From a virus, in IMG/VR virus record IMGVR_UViG_3300007514_000698, positions 1 to 56,882 of that record: DNA of 56,882 nt; one strand, given 5' to 3'. The translations under genes and the position numbers were made by a program. Numbering within the stretch: the stretch's first letter is position 1; each line of letters opens with the position of its first letter. The notes under the pieces are model-generated. The model was not told the DNA's origin. It did not search any database and was given only the letters and a program-made list of their open reading frames with translations. Positions 23,779 to 31,474 of this stretch are shown here, in pieces.

Positions 23779-24678
23779 ATGGCTACAAATTTTGCAGATT
23801 TAAAGAAGAACAAAGCAAATAAGTTTGAATCTTTGGTTCAACAATCAGAGAAGTTGAACGAAAAAGTATCATACGTTGATGAACGTATCTGGAAATGTGA
23901 ACGTGATAAGAACGGTAATGGATATGCAGTTATTCGTTTTCTTCCCGAATGTAAGGGTGAGACAAATGATTTTGTTACAATGTTCACTCATGGGTTTAAA
24001 GGGCCTGGTGGGTGGTATATTGAGAATTGTCTAACGACACCAGTTAAAGGGGCACCAAAAGGATTTGATGATCCTGTTGCACAATCTAATAGTAAGTTGT
24101 GGAATTCTGGTATTGAGTCAGATAAAAATATTGCGAGAGATCGTAAACGTAAACAGAATTTCTATTCTAATATTCTGGTTATCGAAGATTCCGCAAATAA
24201 AGAGAATGAAGGTAAAGTCTTTTTGTTTAGGTATGGTAAGAAGATTTTCGATAAGACACAACAAGTATTAAAACCCGAATTTGCAGATGAAGTTGGTTTT
24301 AATCCATTCGACTTTTGGGATGGTGCAAACTTCAAGATCAAAATCCGTCAGGTAGATGGATATGCGAATTATGATAAGTCTGAATTCTGCGAACCATCTG
24401 CATTGTTTGATGGGGATGAAGAAAAGATTAAGAAGGTTTGGGAATCACAATATTCTTTGGAAGAACTGTTGAGTCCTGATAAGTTTAAATCTTATGCAGA
24501 ATTAAATGCAAGGTTTAAAACTGTTACTGGTGGTCATAGTGCGGATTATGCTGAGACTATTGAGGAAAGTGCAGAACCAGTTGCAGTATCTTCAAACTCT
24601 GCACCGTCAGAGAATTCTGAAAGTGAACCGAATAATGATGAAACAATGGATTACTTTAAGAAACTAGCAGATCAGTAA
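23779..24678 (+). CDS. 32: Single-stranded DNA-binding protein gp32
   Basis: A 299-residue homologue of T4 gp32. The N-terminal basic cooperativity region, the OB-fold core (YSNILVIEDSANKENEGKVFLFRYGKKIFDK, FNPFDFWDGANFKIKIRQVDGYANYDKSEF) and the acidic C-terminus used for partner contacts (ESAEPVAVSSNSAPSENSESEPNNDE) are all visible. The T4 zinc ligands CPVC are replaced: the aligned segment reads GFDDPVAQSNSKLWNSG, so zinc binding is probably lost, as in many marine relatives. It coats single-stranded DNA during replication and recombination. Confidence 0.95.
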   Translation: MATNFADLKKNKANKFESLVQQSEKLNEKVSYVDERIWKCERDKNGNGYAVIRFLPECKGETNDFVTMFTHGFKGPGGWYIENCLTTPVKGAPKGFDDPVAQSNSKLWNSGIESDKNIARDRKRKQNFYSNILVIEDSANKENEGKVFLFRYGKKIFDKTQQVLKPEFADEVGFNPFDFWDGANFKIKIRQVDGYANYDKSEFCEPSALFDGDEEKIKKVWESQYSLEELLSPDKFKSYAELNARFKTVTGGHSADYAETIEESAEPVAVSSNSAPSENSESEPNNDETMDYFKKLADQ

Positions 24679-24685
24679 ATAATGA

Positions 24686-24785
24686 GGGGGAGTGTCTATT
24701 ACAATATTGGTGTATCACCAATAGTATGAATGAATGACCTAGGCATCGCTGTGAAATCCGTTAGACGGTGATACTCCCCCTTTTT
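24686..24785 (+). terminator. Branched terminator / structured RNA after gene 32
   Basis: An outer stem GGGGGAGT (24686-24693) pairs with ACTCCCCC (24773-24780), followed by five T. Unlike a normal terminator the loop is 79 nt and holds two further helices: TATTGGTG/CACCAATA (24705-24723) and ATCGCTG/CGGTGAT. It forms a three-way junction. It separates the plus-strand gp32 gene from the converging minus-strand tail gene. Confidence 0.7.
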
Positions 24786-27201
24786 ATCTTTGTTGTGGTG
24801 ATAATCCCTTAAACTCGTTATTGTCTGCACTTTTTATTCCCGAATCAATTTTTACATCACTTGTACTGAAGGAGTAACTATCTTGCGAACCATTATTATT
24901 CATATAAACATTACCCCCTTGTTTGCCCGCAAATTGATAATCAGGTAGTACAGGGGCGATATTCATCCCTCTTTGTTTTGAGTATGCACCTTGTAATAAT
25001 GTAAGATTTTCAACAGCTCTTTTTCCAACATCCATAAAATAATCACTAGGCCCATCACCTTTAGTATTCCATAAAACACCCATATTAAGATTATACCCCG
25101 GCCCACTATCATTTCCATCTAAGATTGCTTTCTTTAAACCTGGCCAGTTGCCTTGTGTATAAAAGCTAGAACCCATATTGTATGCCATATCTGTTAATGC
25201 AACTTTCGCAGAACCAGTTAAACCTCTCCAATTATCTTCACCTATCCACTTCTTGGCCATTGCTTGAAAGAATGGCCATTCAAGTCTCATTAATGCTCGA
25301 CCTTCTGTTTCGCTTATTCCTCTTTTACCGTCATATAATTCTTTTAAGGTTCTATCGGTGATTCCAACAAATTTTAATTGGTCTGCGGCACCATCTTTAT
25401 CTAAATTGAAACCATAACCAATACTCTTACCTATTGATCCATCTTGTCGTTTATCGTCATAAGAGAATGTTCTAAATTGTTCATAACCCATAGTATTTTT
25501 AATACCAAGAAATATATCATCACCTACGACTGTTTTAAAATCATCTTTGAGTGCTTTACCAATCGATCCTTCACCTAAAACATTAGCAACTTTTCTAGTG
25601 GATTCCCCTAGTGCAGCCTTGATGTCAAGAAAATCTTCTCCGATTTTTGGTTGATCTGTTTTACTAATAAATGCTACATTCTTTTTTAAGATTTCTAGAT
25701 TTTTCTTTGCTTTCTGTAAATCCTTTTCTGCTTTATTTAATGTTGATTGATCTTCATCAGGATCAAACAATTTTCCTTTACCTAATTTCTTCCCTTCAAA
25801 TTGGTTGCCTCCTGGGCCAGACATTTGTTTCCATAGTTTTAAATCTTTTACTCGTTTTTCTAAATTAATTGCCTTCTCCTCTGCCTCTTGAATCATTTTT
25901 TGATTACCTTCATCATAATTAAATGCTCCACGAGGCGCCTTTCTTTTCCATCCTAAAAATTCGGCACCTTTCGGGTATTTATCCATAATCCAATTATGTA
26001 TTGAATCTGTATAACTCAAAAAGGTATGCGCCATCAACTGCAAAGTTTCATCTACTCCTCTTGTTACTTCATGTCTGTAGTGCCAAGCGAGTGCGGTCAG
26101 ACCGACAGCAATACCGATAGGACTCAAAGCAAGTCTTACTGCACCTATAAGTAACATGATACTACCACGAAGTAATGCACCGACTTTTGTAACAAAAGAT
26201 TTTGTTGACATACCAAATATTTTTGAGATAAGAAACATCCCAACAATGGTATTAAGAAATGATGTGAAACCCTCTGTAAGTGTGGGGCCAAACCAACTGG
26301 TAAACACCTTATTAATATCTTTTGTTAATGTTCCATCATATCCAAATATAGCAGTTGCAACCCAATTTGCCATGTTTTTAAAAAAGTCAAGTGCAAACTC
26401 TCCAATACTTTCTATTGATTTTGTAATACTCCACATTTTTGCAAAAAAATCACCTTCTTGCCAACCTTCAAAGTCTTTCGTTAAATTATCCATTAACTTT
26501 TTTAGATCATCCATTGTGTCCATGAAAAAATTGAAAGTTGCTGGGAGAGTATACTTCTTGAACCAATCAACAAAGGGTGTCATAAACTCAATCATTTTAA
26601 AGAATAATTCTTTCATATTGGTAAGAAACTTTTTTGTATTTTCCCATAGTTTCTTTATATCACCAACACTTAGATTTTTACCGAGTGCAAAAGCAGTCAT
26701 AATTCCTAAGAACCACATAAAATATGTTTTGATTTTATCCCAAACTTTTTTCATACCATCCCATATATTATCTCGTTTTTGTATCATCCAATCTTTCAAT
26801 CCCATCCAACCTGACGAAAACTTTTCACCCAATTTTTCAAACATCTTTTTGAGTTCTTTTTTAGTCTCTGATTCTTTTTCTACTGTTTTCATTCCAAGTT
26901 GTGCATTAATATCACTTGTTTTTTTAGTTTCTTCTACAATTTCTTTAGTTTGTTCTTTCGTTTGTTTTTCAATATCTTTAGTTTGTTTATCTGTTTTTTC
27001 TTTTAGATCATCTCGTAACCCTTGTAGTTCTTTAACAACTGCGGCCAATCCTTCTTTATTATCTTTTGCTTGCATGAGTCCGATTGCCCAACCATCTGCT
27101 CCTTTGGACATATCTAAGCCACCAGAAGATTTTTGTTGTCCTTCTTCTCCTACTCCTCTTGGATCGGGTGGTGTTCCCCCTTTACTGGGTGGTTTTTTCA
27201 T
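24784..27201 (-). CDS. Tape-measure-like tail protein with C-terminal lysozyme domain
   Basis: The 805-residue protein has a Pro/Gly-rich start, a long coiled coil (about 60-130, KEKTDKQTKDIEKQTKEQ), several hydrophobic segments (FMWFLGIMTAFALG, MFLISKIFGM, LIGAVRLALSPIGIAVGLTALAW), then a second coiled coil near 440-520. Residues about 590-735 form a T4-lysozyme-like GH24 domain: YEQFRTFSYDDK, SIGKSIGYGFNLD, ETEGRALMRLEW and LTGSAKVALTDMAYNMG. Its place after gp26/gp51 matches T4 gene 29. It probably sets tail length and digests peptidoglycan at infection, replacing the lysozyme missing from gp5. Confidence 0.78.
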   Translation of the reverse strand: MKKPPSKGGTPPDPRGVGEEGQQKSSGGLDMSKGADGWAIGLMQAKDNKEGLAAVVKELQGLRDDLKEKTDKQTKDIEKQTKEQTKEIVEETKKTSDINAQLGMKTVEKESETKKELKKMFEKLGEKFSSGWMGLKDWMIQKRDNIWDGMKKVWDKIKTYFMWFLGIMTAFALGKNLSVGDIKKLWENTKKFLTNMKELFFKMIEFMTPFVDWFKKYTLPATFNFFMDTMDDLKKLMDNLTKDFEGWQEGDFFAKMWSITKSIESIGEFALDFFKNMANWVATAIFGYDGTLTKDINKVFTSWFGPTLTEGFTSFLNTIVGMFLISKIFGMSTKSFVTKVGALLRGSIMLLIGAVRLALSPIGIAVGLTALAWHYRHEVTRGVDETLQLMAHTFLSYTDSIHNWIMDKYPKGAEFLGWKRKAPRGAFNYDEGNQKMIQEAEEKAINLEKRVKDLKLWKQMSGPGGNQFEGKKLGKGKLFDPDEDQSTLNKAEKDLQKAKKNLEILKKNVAFISKTDQPKIGEDFLDIKAALGESTRKVANVLGEGSIGKALKDDFKTVVGDDIFLGIKNTMGYEQFRTFSYDDKRQDGSIGKSIGYGFNLDKDGAADQLKFVGITDRTLKELYDGKRGISETEGRALMRLEWPFFQAMAKKWIGEDNWRGLTGSAKVALTDMAYNMGSSFYTQGNWPGLKKAILDGNDSGPGYNLNMGVLWNTKGDGPSDYFMDVGKRAVENLTLLQGAYSKQRGMNIAPVLPDYQFAGKQGGNVYMNNNGSQDSYSFSTSDVKIDSGIKSADNNEFKGLSPQQR

Positions 27202-27219: not shown

Positions 27220-27408
27220 TTACTTGTTACGTTGTTGTTCTTGTTGTTTTCGTTCTTCTTCTAAATGTTGACTTAATAATTGTAAATATATTTCTTTTTC
27301 CCAAGGCAACATACCTTCAACCTCAGATAATGACCATTTGTGATGGTGTATCAGACTAAAATTTGTATTATAATAGTTCTGTAGACTTTCACTACTGAGG
27401 CTTAACCG
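27220..27408 (-). CDS. 51: gp51-like extension reached by -1 frameshift from gp26
   Basis: This frame has 62 codons from the slip site to TAA at 27220. It reads LIHHHKWSLSEVEGMLPWEKEIYLQ followed by a Gln/Glu/Arg-rich tail, a pattern known from gp51-like baseplate hub chaperones. No ATG, GTG or TTG start lies between the slip site and the conserved part; the only internal Met would leave 30 residues. It is therefore best read as the tail of a gp26-gp51 fusion made by a -1 slip. A rare non-standard start is the alternative. Confidence 0.7.
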   Translation of the reverse strand, partial: RLSLSSESLQNYYNTNFSLIHHHKWSLSEVEGMLPWEKEIYLQLLSQHLEEERKQQEQQRNK

Positions 27409-28142
27409 AAAAAAGACTGTAGACCCTCCAAGACTTTTTTATCTTTCCATCCACAGACTTTTTTATCTTTTCCCTTACCTGTTTTAAAATTACATTTAAG
27501 TTCAACTTCATGTGATAATTTTGGCATTGTATTAAAGAATTCTTTGATCTTCTGAAACTCTGTATCGGGTAATGATTCAAAGAATTCATGTAATTCTTCT
27601 TTCGTATGATCTTTAGCAGGATATGTACTATCTTTATCCCATATAGTTTCTAGACAACTTACTAATGAAGTGAATATCATTTCTACATCTGAATCTGATC
27701 CATTTTCTTCCATACCTATTTTACTTTCAATCGAAGGGTATTTCATTATTATACCAATGTTATCAGTTAATTCAATTTTATTAGTATGTTCCTTTTCAGT
27801 TTTAACACCTACATTCATTAAATTGACATTGAAACTAATTGGATTTTTACATTCTTGACATTCTATTTCTAAATCTATTTCTTCACCTTTAGATTTTGCT
27901 CTTAATTGTAAAAAGATATACTCAAGATCAAACATTGGTAAAGTTTTTGCATTGACTTTTTCTGATACACAACTATCAATAATATCTGCTACAGCATTCA
28001 TTATAGTTTCTTCTTTTTCTGTCTCTAATGCTAAAAGAAGTATTTTTTCTTCTTTAACTAAGAAGGGTCTGTAGTTTAACACGTTCCCTGTTGAGGGTAA
28101 GGTTAATTGATATTTTGGTGTAGTTATTCTTGGTAATGCCAT
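27402..28142 (-). CDS. 26: Baseplate hub assembly chaperone gp26
   Basis: The 246-residue product begins ALPRITTPKYQLTLPSTGNVLNYRPFLVKEEKILLLA, typical of gp26 in T4-like marine phages. A zinc-ribbon-like pair ECQECKNPISFNV sits near residue 95, and a second cysteine set (LKCNF, KVCGWKDKK) near the C-terminus. gp26 helps assemble the baseplate hub and is not a major virion protein. Its last codons carry a T TTT TTC slippery site, six bases before the stop, giving a probable -1 frameshift product. RBS AAAGGAG lies upstream. Confidence 0.9.
   Translation of the reverse strand: MALPRITTPKYQLTLPSTGNVLNYRPFLVKEEKILLLALETEKEETIMNAVADIIDSCVSEKVNAKTLPMFDLEYIFLQLRAKSKGEEIDLEIECQECKNPISFNVNLMNVGVKTEKEHTNKIELTDNIGIIMKYPSIESKIGMEENGSDSDVEMIFTSLVSCLETIWDKDSTYPAKDHTKEELHEFFESLPDTEFQKIKEFFNTMPKLSHEVELKCNFKTGKGKDKKVCGWKDKKVLEGLQSFFG
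27408..27414 (-). other. -1 frameshift slippery heptamer T TTT TTC
   Basis: On the minus strand the gp26 codons TCT TTT TTC GGT TAA contain T TTT TTC in the correct zero-frame phase for a -1 slip. After the slip, codons CGG TTA AGC lead straight into the gp51-like frame. This is a canonical X XXY YYZ site. Confidence 0.75.
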
Positions 28143-28189: not shown

Positions 28190-29149
28190 TTATGCTTCGA
28201 ATACGTCTAAATTAGAATTATTTCCTCTGGTATTTACTCCCTTTGGTGGATCATTGTTTACGCCAGGTTGTCGTCTATCGGTCAGTCTCTTTTGGAGTTC
28301 TTCAAATTCTGAAAACGCATCATCAGATTCTATGTTACTTAAATCGGGTAGAGGTGAATTAGGTATATCTTCAAATATCTTTCCCCCTGACAATCCCTTG
28401 CGAGGTTCTACTATCATATCTCTAAAAGTCCAATTTACTGTCATCCTTTGGATAGTATTTGATGCACTATAATCTAGTTGCAAAGGTGAAAGTAGTTTTG
28501 GGTATGCATCAACTAATGTATATTTACACACACTTCCTATATCACTAGTTGTAGCAAATTTTTGATGTTTAGATAATTGATGTATTTCTAATGTTCCAAC
28601 ATATTCATTAAACCAACCAACACTTTGATTTGGTTTATACATTAGGTCTTGCCAAGTTTCAAAGAAATGATACTCATCCATTGATTCACTCACATAAAAT
28701 GATGATGAAATTTCATCAAAGAGTTTATCGTATACATATTCCTTTTTAAGTCCATATGTCTTGAGTGCTTTAGTTGCTATATTATTGCCAGGTATAGAGA
28801 TTTGATGACAATTAAATCCAATCTGTCTAAGTTTAGAAAGTCCCCATTTTTTTATTAATTTTGAAGCAGGAGTCATTACAATTTTAAATAAGGAAGGTCT
28901 TGCCCACAATCCTGATTCATTACCAATATCCCTGACGAATTTACTAAGTGTATTATCATGCGTAGTTCTCGCATCACCTACATCTGGATTTACAACTCTA
29001 CTGAAACCTATAGGAATATTTGTTCCAATAGTAATTCCTGGCCCAAAAACACCAGAACCGCCCCCTCCGAAGATTCTTTGGAGATTTAGATTTCCCCCAA
29101 CACCTCTACCTCTTTGGTTAAATATATTTCCGCCTAGTCTTATAGCCAT
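28190..29149 (-). CDS. 54: Baseplate tail-tube initiator gp54
   Basis: The 319-residue protein has the tail-tube-like core RPSLFKIVMTP, GFNCHQISIPGNNIATKALKTYG, then LVDAYPKLLSPLQLDYSASNTIQRMTVNWTFRDM. These match the tail-tube fold shared by gp19, gp48 and gp54; position beside gp4 and length favour gp54. gp54 caps the baseplate hub and starts tube polymerisation. The first 45 residues are Gly-rich. It overlaps the next upstream gene by one base. Confidence 0.82.
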   Translation of the reverse strand: MAIRLGGNIFNQRGRGVGGNLNLQRIFGGGGSGVFGPGITIGTNIPIGFSRVVNPDVGDARTTHDNTLSKFVRDIGNESGLWARPSLFKIVMTPASKLIKKWGLSKLRQIGFNCHQISIPGNNIATKALKTYGLKKEYVYDKLFDEISSSFYVSESMDEYHFFETWQDLMYKPNQSVGWFNEYVGTLEIHQLSKHQKFATTSDIGSVCKYTLVDAYPKLLSPLQLDYSASNTIQRMTVNWTFRDMIVEPRKGLSGGKIFEDIPNSPLPDLSNIESDDAFSEFEELQKRLTDRRQPGVNNDPPKGVNTRGNNSNLDVFEA

Positions 29150-30199: not shown

Positions 30200-31474
30200 A
30201 TGGCAGAAATTAGACCAGACGGTACTGTTGTTTTGGACGAAGTAGTGGTACAGGGTAAGGCAGAGACTAGTAGACTTAGTAGGGGAGCTTTTAAATCGAA
30301 TAATGCGACTATTCATAAGTACCCATTATTTCTAGATAGGGGAGCACCAGGCCCAGAAAAACAAAGAAGAATTGAAGAACGATCTAGGGAATGTATAAGA
30401 TTTACTGCTATTAGACAGCCTGGTCTTACTCTAAGCAAGAAGGATATAGAAGCAATTCGTTTAGCTGTTCTGCAAGGGAAAACACAGAAACAAAAACAGA
30501 TTGCAGCTACAGAAAGACAACTTAATGGTGTTGATTTTCTGGAACAACAAGGAGTTCGTACTGAGGCAGAATCAAAACAGTTAAGGGATAAATTGATCTC
30601 GCAATTAGCTCGAGAAAAAGGAGAAAGATCAGATATTGATAAATTTCTACAAACTGGTGGTGCAGAAGGAAGTATAGATGGTTTGAAACTTCTCGAATCT
30701 CTTGGTTTTGGAATTGAAGCTTTTATTGACATAGGTAGAACTCAACTCAAACAACCCTCGGTTGCGTTAGAACATTGTTTTCTTTATATGCCCGCATCTG
30801 TCGTTTACAATGAAAGTGCAACATGGAATACGGAAGGTATAGGTGCTTTGGGTCAGGGGGTTAGAGAACTTATCAAGAGTGATGCTGGTATAAGTGATAT
30901 AATGAAAAGATTTGGTTCTGGAATTGTAACAAATCTTGCAAAAACTGCTGCTGTTGCTGGTGGTGCTATGATCGCTGGTACATTTGGTGCAGTTGCAACT
31001 GCGCTCGGTGGTGGTGGTGTTACTAGTGCGATTGGTCAATCTTTTAGACTTGCACAGAATCCTTATGAAGAACAATTATTTCAAGGTATTCCATTTAGAG
31101 TGTTTAATTTTACTTTTGATTTTATTGCAACATCAGAAACAGAATATCTACAAGTTCAGAAGATAATTAAAATGTTTAGGAAACATTCTAGACCAACATT
31201 TGCAATAAATGATGGTAGTGGAACTCAAAACGAAGCACTTTACAGTTACCCTAATGAATTTAATATTGAGTTTATGCATTTAGAGGATGATGTATACCAG
31301 ACAAATCCTCATTTACCTAGATTGCACAATACTGTATTAACAAACATTACAACTAACTTTGCACCTGATGGATGGATTGCACATGACAAAGGTGAACCAC
31401 TTTCTATTGTTGTCCAAATGGCATTTACCGAAGTTAGAAAGAATACAAGTGAAGATATAGATAAAGGTTACTAA
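30200..31474 (+). CDS. 48: Baseplate tail-tube cap gp48
   Basis: The 424-residue protein ends with the gp48 signature: NPYEEQLFQGIPFRVFNFTFDFIATSETEY, IIKMFRKHSRPTF, LPRLHNTVLTNITTNFAPDGWIAHDKGEP. A hydrophobic Gly/Ala stretch near residues 245-280 (AAVAGGAMIAGTFGAVATALGGGG) is a tape-measure-contact region in relatives. gp48 sits between hub and tube. First gene of the plus-strand tail operon, with a late promoter 40 nt upstream and GGGAG ribosome site. Confidence 0.9.
   Translation: MAEIRPDGTVVLDEVVVQGKAETSRLSRGAFKSNNATIHKYPLFLDRGAPGPEKQRRIEERSRECIRFTAIRQPGLTLSKKDIEAIRLAVLQGKTQKQKQIAATERQLNGVDFLEQQGVRTEAESKQLRDKLISQLAREKGERSDIDKFLQTGGAEGSIDGLKLLESLGFGIEAFIDIGRTQLKQPSVALEHCFLYMPASVVYNESATWNTEGIGALGQGVRELIKSDAGISDIMKRFGSGIVTNLAKTAAVAGGAMIAGTFGAVATALGGGGVTSAIGQSFRLAQNPYEEQLFQGIPFRVFNFTFDFIATSETEYLQVQKIIKMFRKHSRPTFAINDGSGTQNEALYSYPNEFNIEFMHLEDDVYQTNPHLPRLHNTVLTNITTNFAPDGWIAHDKGEPLSIVVQMAFTEVRKNTSEDIDKGY

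Follow-up and report, generated by a model that had tools for sequence, protein, structure and literature searches.

The locus examined here raises the question of how a gp51-like stretch, which lies just past the stop codon of a gp26 homologue, is read. The window, that is, the whole stretch of 56,882 nt analysed, is the IMG/VR record IMGVR_UViG_3300007514_000698, an unannotated virus record. Frameshifting in tail chaperone genes is textbook knowledge for long-tailed phages. The gp26 homologue and the gp51-like stretch are very probably one tail assembly chaperone gene that is read two ways via a programmed −1 frameshift. A likeness to the G/GT chaperone frameshift of other tailed phages had been proposed in the first-pass annotation of this DNA, and sequence conservation strongly supports that reading.

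The probable slip site and its reading frames

All features of the locus are on the minus strand (Table 1). The terminal codons of the gp26 homologue are CAG TCT TTT TTC GGT TAA, and the TAA is at 27404..27402. The first-pass annotation placed an in-phase T TTT TTC six bases before this stop; the heptamer and its phase are correct, while the spacing is three bases (GGT). A −1 slip leads, as was claimed, into 62 gp51-like codons, with the translation RLSLSSESLQNYYNTNFSLIHHHKWSLSEVEGMLPWEKEIYLQLLSQHLEEERKQQEQQRNK followed by a stop codon. The family that this extension matches best in Table 1, phrog_634, is the baseplate hub assembly catalyst (gp51). The claim that the −1 frame has no usable start also stands for the window: between the last upstream stop and the conserved core, ATG, GTG and TTG are all absent, and the first ATG of the frame falls within the core, at GMLPW.

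For a check on chance, in-phase heptamers of the tested types were counted in ATG-started window ORFs of at least 100 aa. There are 24 of them, of which three have a stop no more than 45 nt away. Among these three, a long −1 extension is seen only at gp26 (62 codons, versus 21 and 5).

Table 1. Positions in the window of the features at the gp26–gp51 locus
Feature	Position	Strand	Remarks
Tail tube (gp54-type) gene	28190..29149	−	Immediately upstream of gp26; phrog_45, E = 1.1e-35
gp26 homologue, 246 aa; predicted short product (TAC-N) when no slip occurs	27402..28142	−	PF12322 T4_baseplate, E = 8e-61; phrog_150 baseplate hub, E = 6.6e-66
Shine-Dalgarno-like GGAGGG, putative frameshift stimulator	27424..27429	−	Ends 9 nt upstream of the heptamer
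Slippery heptamer T_TTT_TTC, in gp26 phase	27414..27408	−	X_XXY_YYZ type; 3 nt (GGT) ahead of the gp26 stop
−1 extension, gp51-like, 62 codons and stop; predicted C-terminal part of the long product (TAC-NC)	27220..27408	−	phrog_634, E = 5.6e-28; phrog_150 C-terminus, E = 4.5e-6
Weak imperfect hairpin TCAGTAG...CTACAGA, predicted	27378..27398	−	About 9 nt past the heptamer; z = +0.5 versus shuffles
Next gene, 805 aa, likely tape measure, C-terminus weakly lysozyme-like	24784..27201	−	phrog_167, E = 0.033, marginal

Conservation and spread among relatives

Relatives were collected in two protein-similarity scans of viral contigs, which gave 135 distinct loci. The scans used peptide patterns inside gp26, and the heptamer played no part in the selection. 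With four isolate phage genomes and the window, the set amounts to 140 loci; these share ancestry and are not independent, so that the conservation statistics are indicative only. Conservation of the heptamer, which the first-pass annotation had named as a check, was found throughout: all 140 loci contain an in-phase TTTTTTC (126) or TTTTTTT (14) not more than 34 nt from the gp26 end. In 138 loci, the downstream part is sufficiently long for gp51 to be recognised, and every one of them has it in frame −1. As a control, the remaining Phe-Phe pairs of these gp26 genes were examined, and only 18 of 161 read T_TTT_TTY. A chance heptamer in an AT-rich genome is ruled out by the conservation in relatives together with this Phe-Phe control.

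In principle, faulty sequencing or assembly could have produced the frame break, or a fused gene could have been broken by a real mutation. The window does come from a record of the unannotated IMG/VR type, and T4 gp51 shows that an unbroken long gene is possible. However, every one of the 138 readable relatives, isolate genomes included, has the break in the identical position. This explanation is already refuted, and its probability is practically nil.

The length of the −1 extension is 56–69 codons in 137 complete relatives. Its conservation is of the protein type from the first post-slip codon onward. The entropies by codon position are 1.13, 0.89 and 1.58 for codons 1–15, a region upstream of most possible starts, and the third codon position is the most variable there. 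Post-slip residues R1 and L9 are kept in 103 and 118 of 121 loci, respectively.

These data also bear on the alternative that gp51 is a separate short protein, made from an independent start or by re-initiation just past the gp26 stop. A separate gp51 coding sequence is annotated right at the gp26 stop in S-PM2, S-SSM7, P-SSM3, Rhizobium AF3 and S-RIM44, and an ATG is present in frame before the core in 61 of the 140 loci. However, ATG is absent before the core in the other 79, and ATG, GTG and TTG are wholly absent in 60, the window among them. A start with a Shine-Dalgarno-like sequence is seen in only 3 of 140. Besides, some annotated gp51 starts (Mosig, HTVC008M, C48C1 and D479) cut off conserved residues, and a separate gp51 leaves the invariant heptamer without explanation. 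The combination that had been named as refuting the frameshift, an ATG-started gp51 in relatives with no conserved heptamer, was looked for in this survey, and the heptamer is kept in every locus. The survey of 140 loci rejects an independent gp51 start both for the window and in general, and this alternative can be regarded as very improbable. The programmed −1 frameshift is the preferred reading.

The frameshift layout is widespread. It is the same in S-SSM7, HTVC008M, Melnitz-2, Stenotrophomonas BUCT608 (Menderavirus) and Desulfovibrio phage 7757, in KVP40-type phi-pp2, BUCT-ZZ01, C48C1, Vibrio D479 and S-RIM44, in Aeromonas AsFcp_4 (Straboviridae, Angelvirus), and in three more divergent contigs (L155–L157). 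Erwinia phage Kaldavass has the same layout with a diverged extension, and Rhizobium AF3 (Pootjesviridae) has it with the site TTTTTTG. The layout reaches Straboviridae (the KVP40 and Aeromonas groups), Pootjesviridae and others. A very large group of marine phages appears to make its tail chaperone by frameshifting, as supported from sequence. The gp26–gp51 join is annotated in none of the isolate records examined; in several of them, the gp51 stretch is blank or begun at an internal codon. If the chaperone is made by frameshifting, the small gp51 genes routinely annotated in genomes of cyanophages and pelagiphages, like the gaps left blank there, probably represent C-terminal parts that are mis-annotated.

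Two variants of the site were observed. The distance between heptamer and gp26 stop is 24 nt instead of 3 nt in a subgroup which includes Pelagibacter phage Mosig (L001, L024, L026, L055, L078, L082, L094, L095, L100, L104, L114, L117, L119 and L127). With this distance, the tail of the short product becomes seven residues longer and overlaps the extension. Ackermannviridae-type relatives, namely Vibrio VP-1 (L147), Vibrio D531 (L148), SUMAE (L150), Klebsiella May (L151) and Cygsa01 (L172), have a gp51-like extension in the −1 frame that contains a PW motif, and lack the canonical heptamer. Their sites at the gp26 end are shorter T runs (GTTTTTC, CTTTTC and ATTTTC), which recall the slip in T7 gene 10.

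Candidate stimulators

The GGAGGG upstream of the heptamer is a candidate stimulator, judging from its distribution. GAGGG is at exactly 9 nt spacing in 77 of 140 relatives. The codon choice GAG:GAA for Glu-Gly near the site is 77:19, versus 29:66 at other Glu-Gly in gp26 (Fisher p = 3e-12, uncorrected for relatedness). Shine-Dalgarno-like four-mers are seen in 73% of the upstream 22-mers; synonymous resampling gave 44% (56% at most in 300). GAGG is at 9 nt also in the KVP40-type, Aeromonas and Rhizobium phages, despite Arg-Gly codons there instead of Glu-Gly. Several other relatives are without the upstream GAGG element. No description of a Shine-Dalgarno-like element at the gp26 site was found in searchable papers. 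This element and the quantified conservation of the heptamer are the additions made here, and the candidate upstream stimulator is testable.

The spacing is relevant to another explanation, that RNA polymerase slips on the T run and joins the frames, instead of the ribosome. All relatives do have six or seven T in a row. Transcriptional slippage usually needs eight or more T, and runs of six T are short for it. In 126 of 140 loci, the six T are still followed by C, and the heptamer keeps its ribosomal phase and GAGGG its spacing, which argues against the polymerase. Polymerase slippage is therefore very improbable, and slippage by the ribosome remains the favoured reading.

Downstream of the slip site, no strong hairpin was found in the window, and the weak one listed in Table 1 is doubtful as a stimulator. 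Among relatives as a group, downstream structure is enriched, with a mean z of −1.0 to −1.5 versus −0.2 in control stretches. Alignment-wide covariation gives a modest signal, in which columns 12–19 pair with 35–42 in a shifting register. Several cyanophages (L002, L142 and L063) have strong hairpins of differing sequences just past the slip site; the size is about 14 bp in S-PM2 and about 10 bp in S-SSM7. These cyanophage hairpins are probably lineage-specific stimulators.

In E. coli dnaX, the slippery heptamer is preceded by a Shine-Dalgarno-like stimulator at a distance of about 10 nt, the downstream hairpin is strong, and the frameshift product is truncated. The window resembles dnaX in the Shine-Dalgarno-like element upstream of the heptamer. 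It is unlike dnaX in that the product of dnaX is the truncated one and in that the window is without a strong hairpin.

Proposed chaperone function and the T4 genes 26 and 51

A scheme for the locus can be proposed as follows. Most ribosomes would end at the gp26 stop and release the short protein (TAC-N). A fraction may be held by the pairing of GGAGGG, nine bases behind the slippery site, with 16S rRNA. The held ribosomes would slip back by one base, with both Phe tRNAs on T TTT TTC, and read the 62 further codons to produce the long protein TAC-NC, gp26–gp51. By analogy with lambda G/GT, the mixture of TAC-N and TAC-NC would coat the likely tape measure protein, whose gene follows next, while tail tube subunits would be recruited by the gp51 part. 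In this scheme we infer the slippage itself, its rate, the role of the stimulator and the chaperone action; the heptamer, the frames and their conservation are directly established.

Xu, Hendrix and Duda are said to have described a conserved tail-gene frameshift, lambda G/GT, in 2004. The present locus is similar to lambda G/GT in layout, with a short protein and a predicted −1 extended long protein, a heptamer close to where the first ORF ends, and a position just before what is here the likely tape measure gene. The slippery heptamer in lambda is G_GGA_AAG, unlike T_TTT_TTC here.

With the tail tube gene on one side and the 805-aa gene on the other, gp26/gp51 occupies the place that is classic for chaperone genes, ahead of the tape measure gene, although the tape measure assignment in the window is marginal. 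The 805-aa protein has a hydrophobic segment at 336–373. Its C-terminal part, at 24877–25536 (−), looks like a phage lysozyme by eye, with Pfam Phage_lysozyme at E = 0.05, below the cut-off. In HTVC008M, the annotated tape measure gene is one hypothetical ORF further on, and of the several tape measure families that it matches, the best is phrog_58 (E = 8.4e-12).

The predicted fold of gp26 (pLDDT 92.8) matches many T4-type hub proteins. Its comparison with solved tail chaperones gave no significant match (HK97 2OB9, E = 2.4, TM 0.22/0.40), and neither did a sequence search of solved structures for chaperones. The −1 extension is predicted to be helical (pLDDT 77), and its fold alone has no significant structural match.

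Homology to the T4 proteins, in contrast to the chaperone action, is directly observed. T4 genes 26 and 51 are adjacent and divergent. T4 gp26 (208 aa) matches phrog_150 at 14–235, while T4 gp51 (249 aa) matches phrog_150 at 13–280 and phrog_634 besides. The profile of the relatives' gp26 matches T4 gp26 (E = 5.6e-21). The profile of the −1 extension matches the C-terminus of T4 gp51 (209–243; E = 5.8e-7) and shows no match to T4 gp26 (E = 0.39). These matches indicate that the whole frameshift fusion has its counterpart in T4 gp51, and the short product in T4 gp26. On these profiles, T4 gp51 has the same two-part architecture as the fusion, gp26 being the short form and gp51 the long one. T4 has separate short and long genes, whereas the window has the frameshift form. 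The frameshift could have been replaced by two genes in T4; the reverse is less likely. In this way, T4 genes 26 and 51, the classical hub-assembly genes, would fall into the lambda G/GT scheme. A more tentative proposal, with a chance slightly below even, combines two points: that a conserved internal Shine-Dalgarno sequence 9–10 nt upstream of the slippery site is, as in dnaX, the main driver of the frameshift in T4-like phages generally, and that the frameshift is ancestral, the T4 group having escaped it via duplication into a short (26) and a long (51) copy.

Vladimirov, Gautam and Davidson reportedly identified genes 26 and 51 as the tail assembly chaperone genes of T4-like phages in 2022. 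Literature searches for an open description of the gp26–gp51 frameshift gave only papers which cite that work. One of them credits Vladimirov et al. 2022 with the observation that TAC-N genes in T4-like phages contain poly-T slippery sequences (PMC12846349), a feature shared by the window. Another, citing the same work, mentions T4-like phages with a short gene and a longer fusion gene in place of the frameshift (PMC10885494). The mechanism is of the standard tail-chaperone kind and, according to these papers, has already been linked to T4-like phages, so the first-pass claim that a gp26–gp51 frameshift is undescribed in T4-like phages does not hold. The tail chaperone frameshift of Vandenendeviridae and Andersonviridae likewise has a −1 extension, of about 200 bp, at the TAC-N end and a poly-T motif (PMC12846349). 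The motif there is GTTTTT, and the phage lineage is different (PMC12846349).

Three further observations concern the window. The gp26 homologue keeps four cysteines, in CQEC and CNF...VCGW, with an insert of 9–10 residues. NPKTG is seen in most cyanophage relatives where the window has cysteines, and T4 gp26 has CTC and CPEC at the same places. This pattern suggests a zinc-ribbon that was lost in most Kyanoviridae. On the plus strand, 23779–24678 encodes a T4-type gp32 ssDNA-binding protein (PF08804, E = 8e-48), and 30200–31474 encodes a baseplate tail tube cap (phrog_230, E = 7.9e-47).
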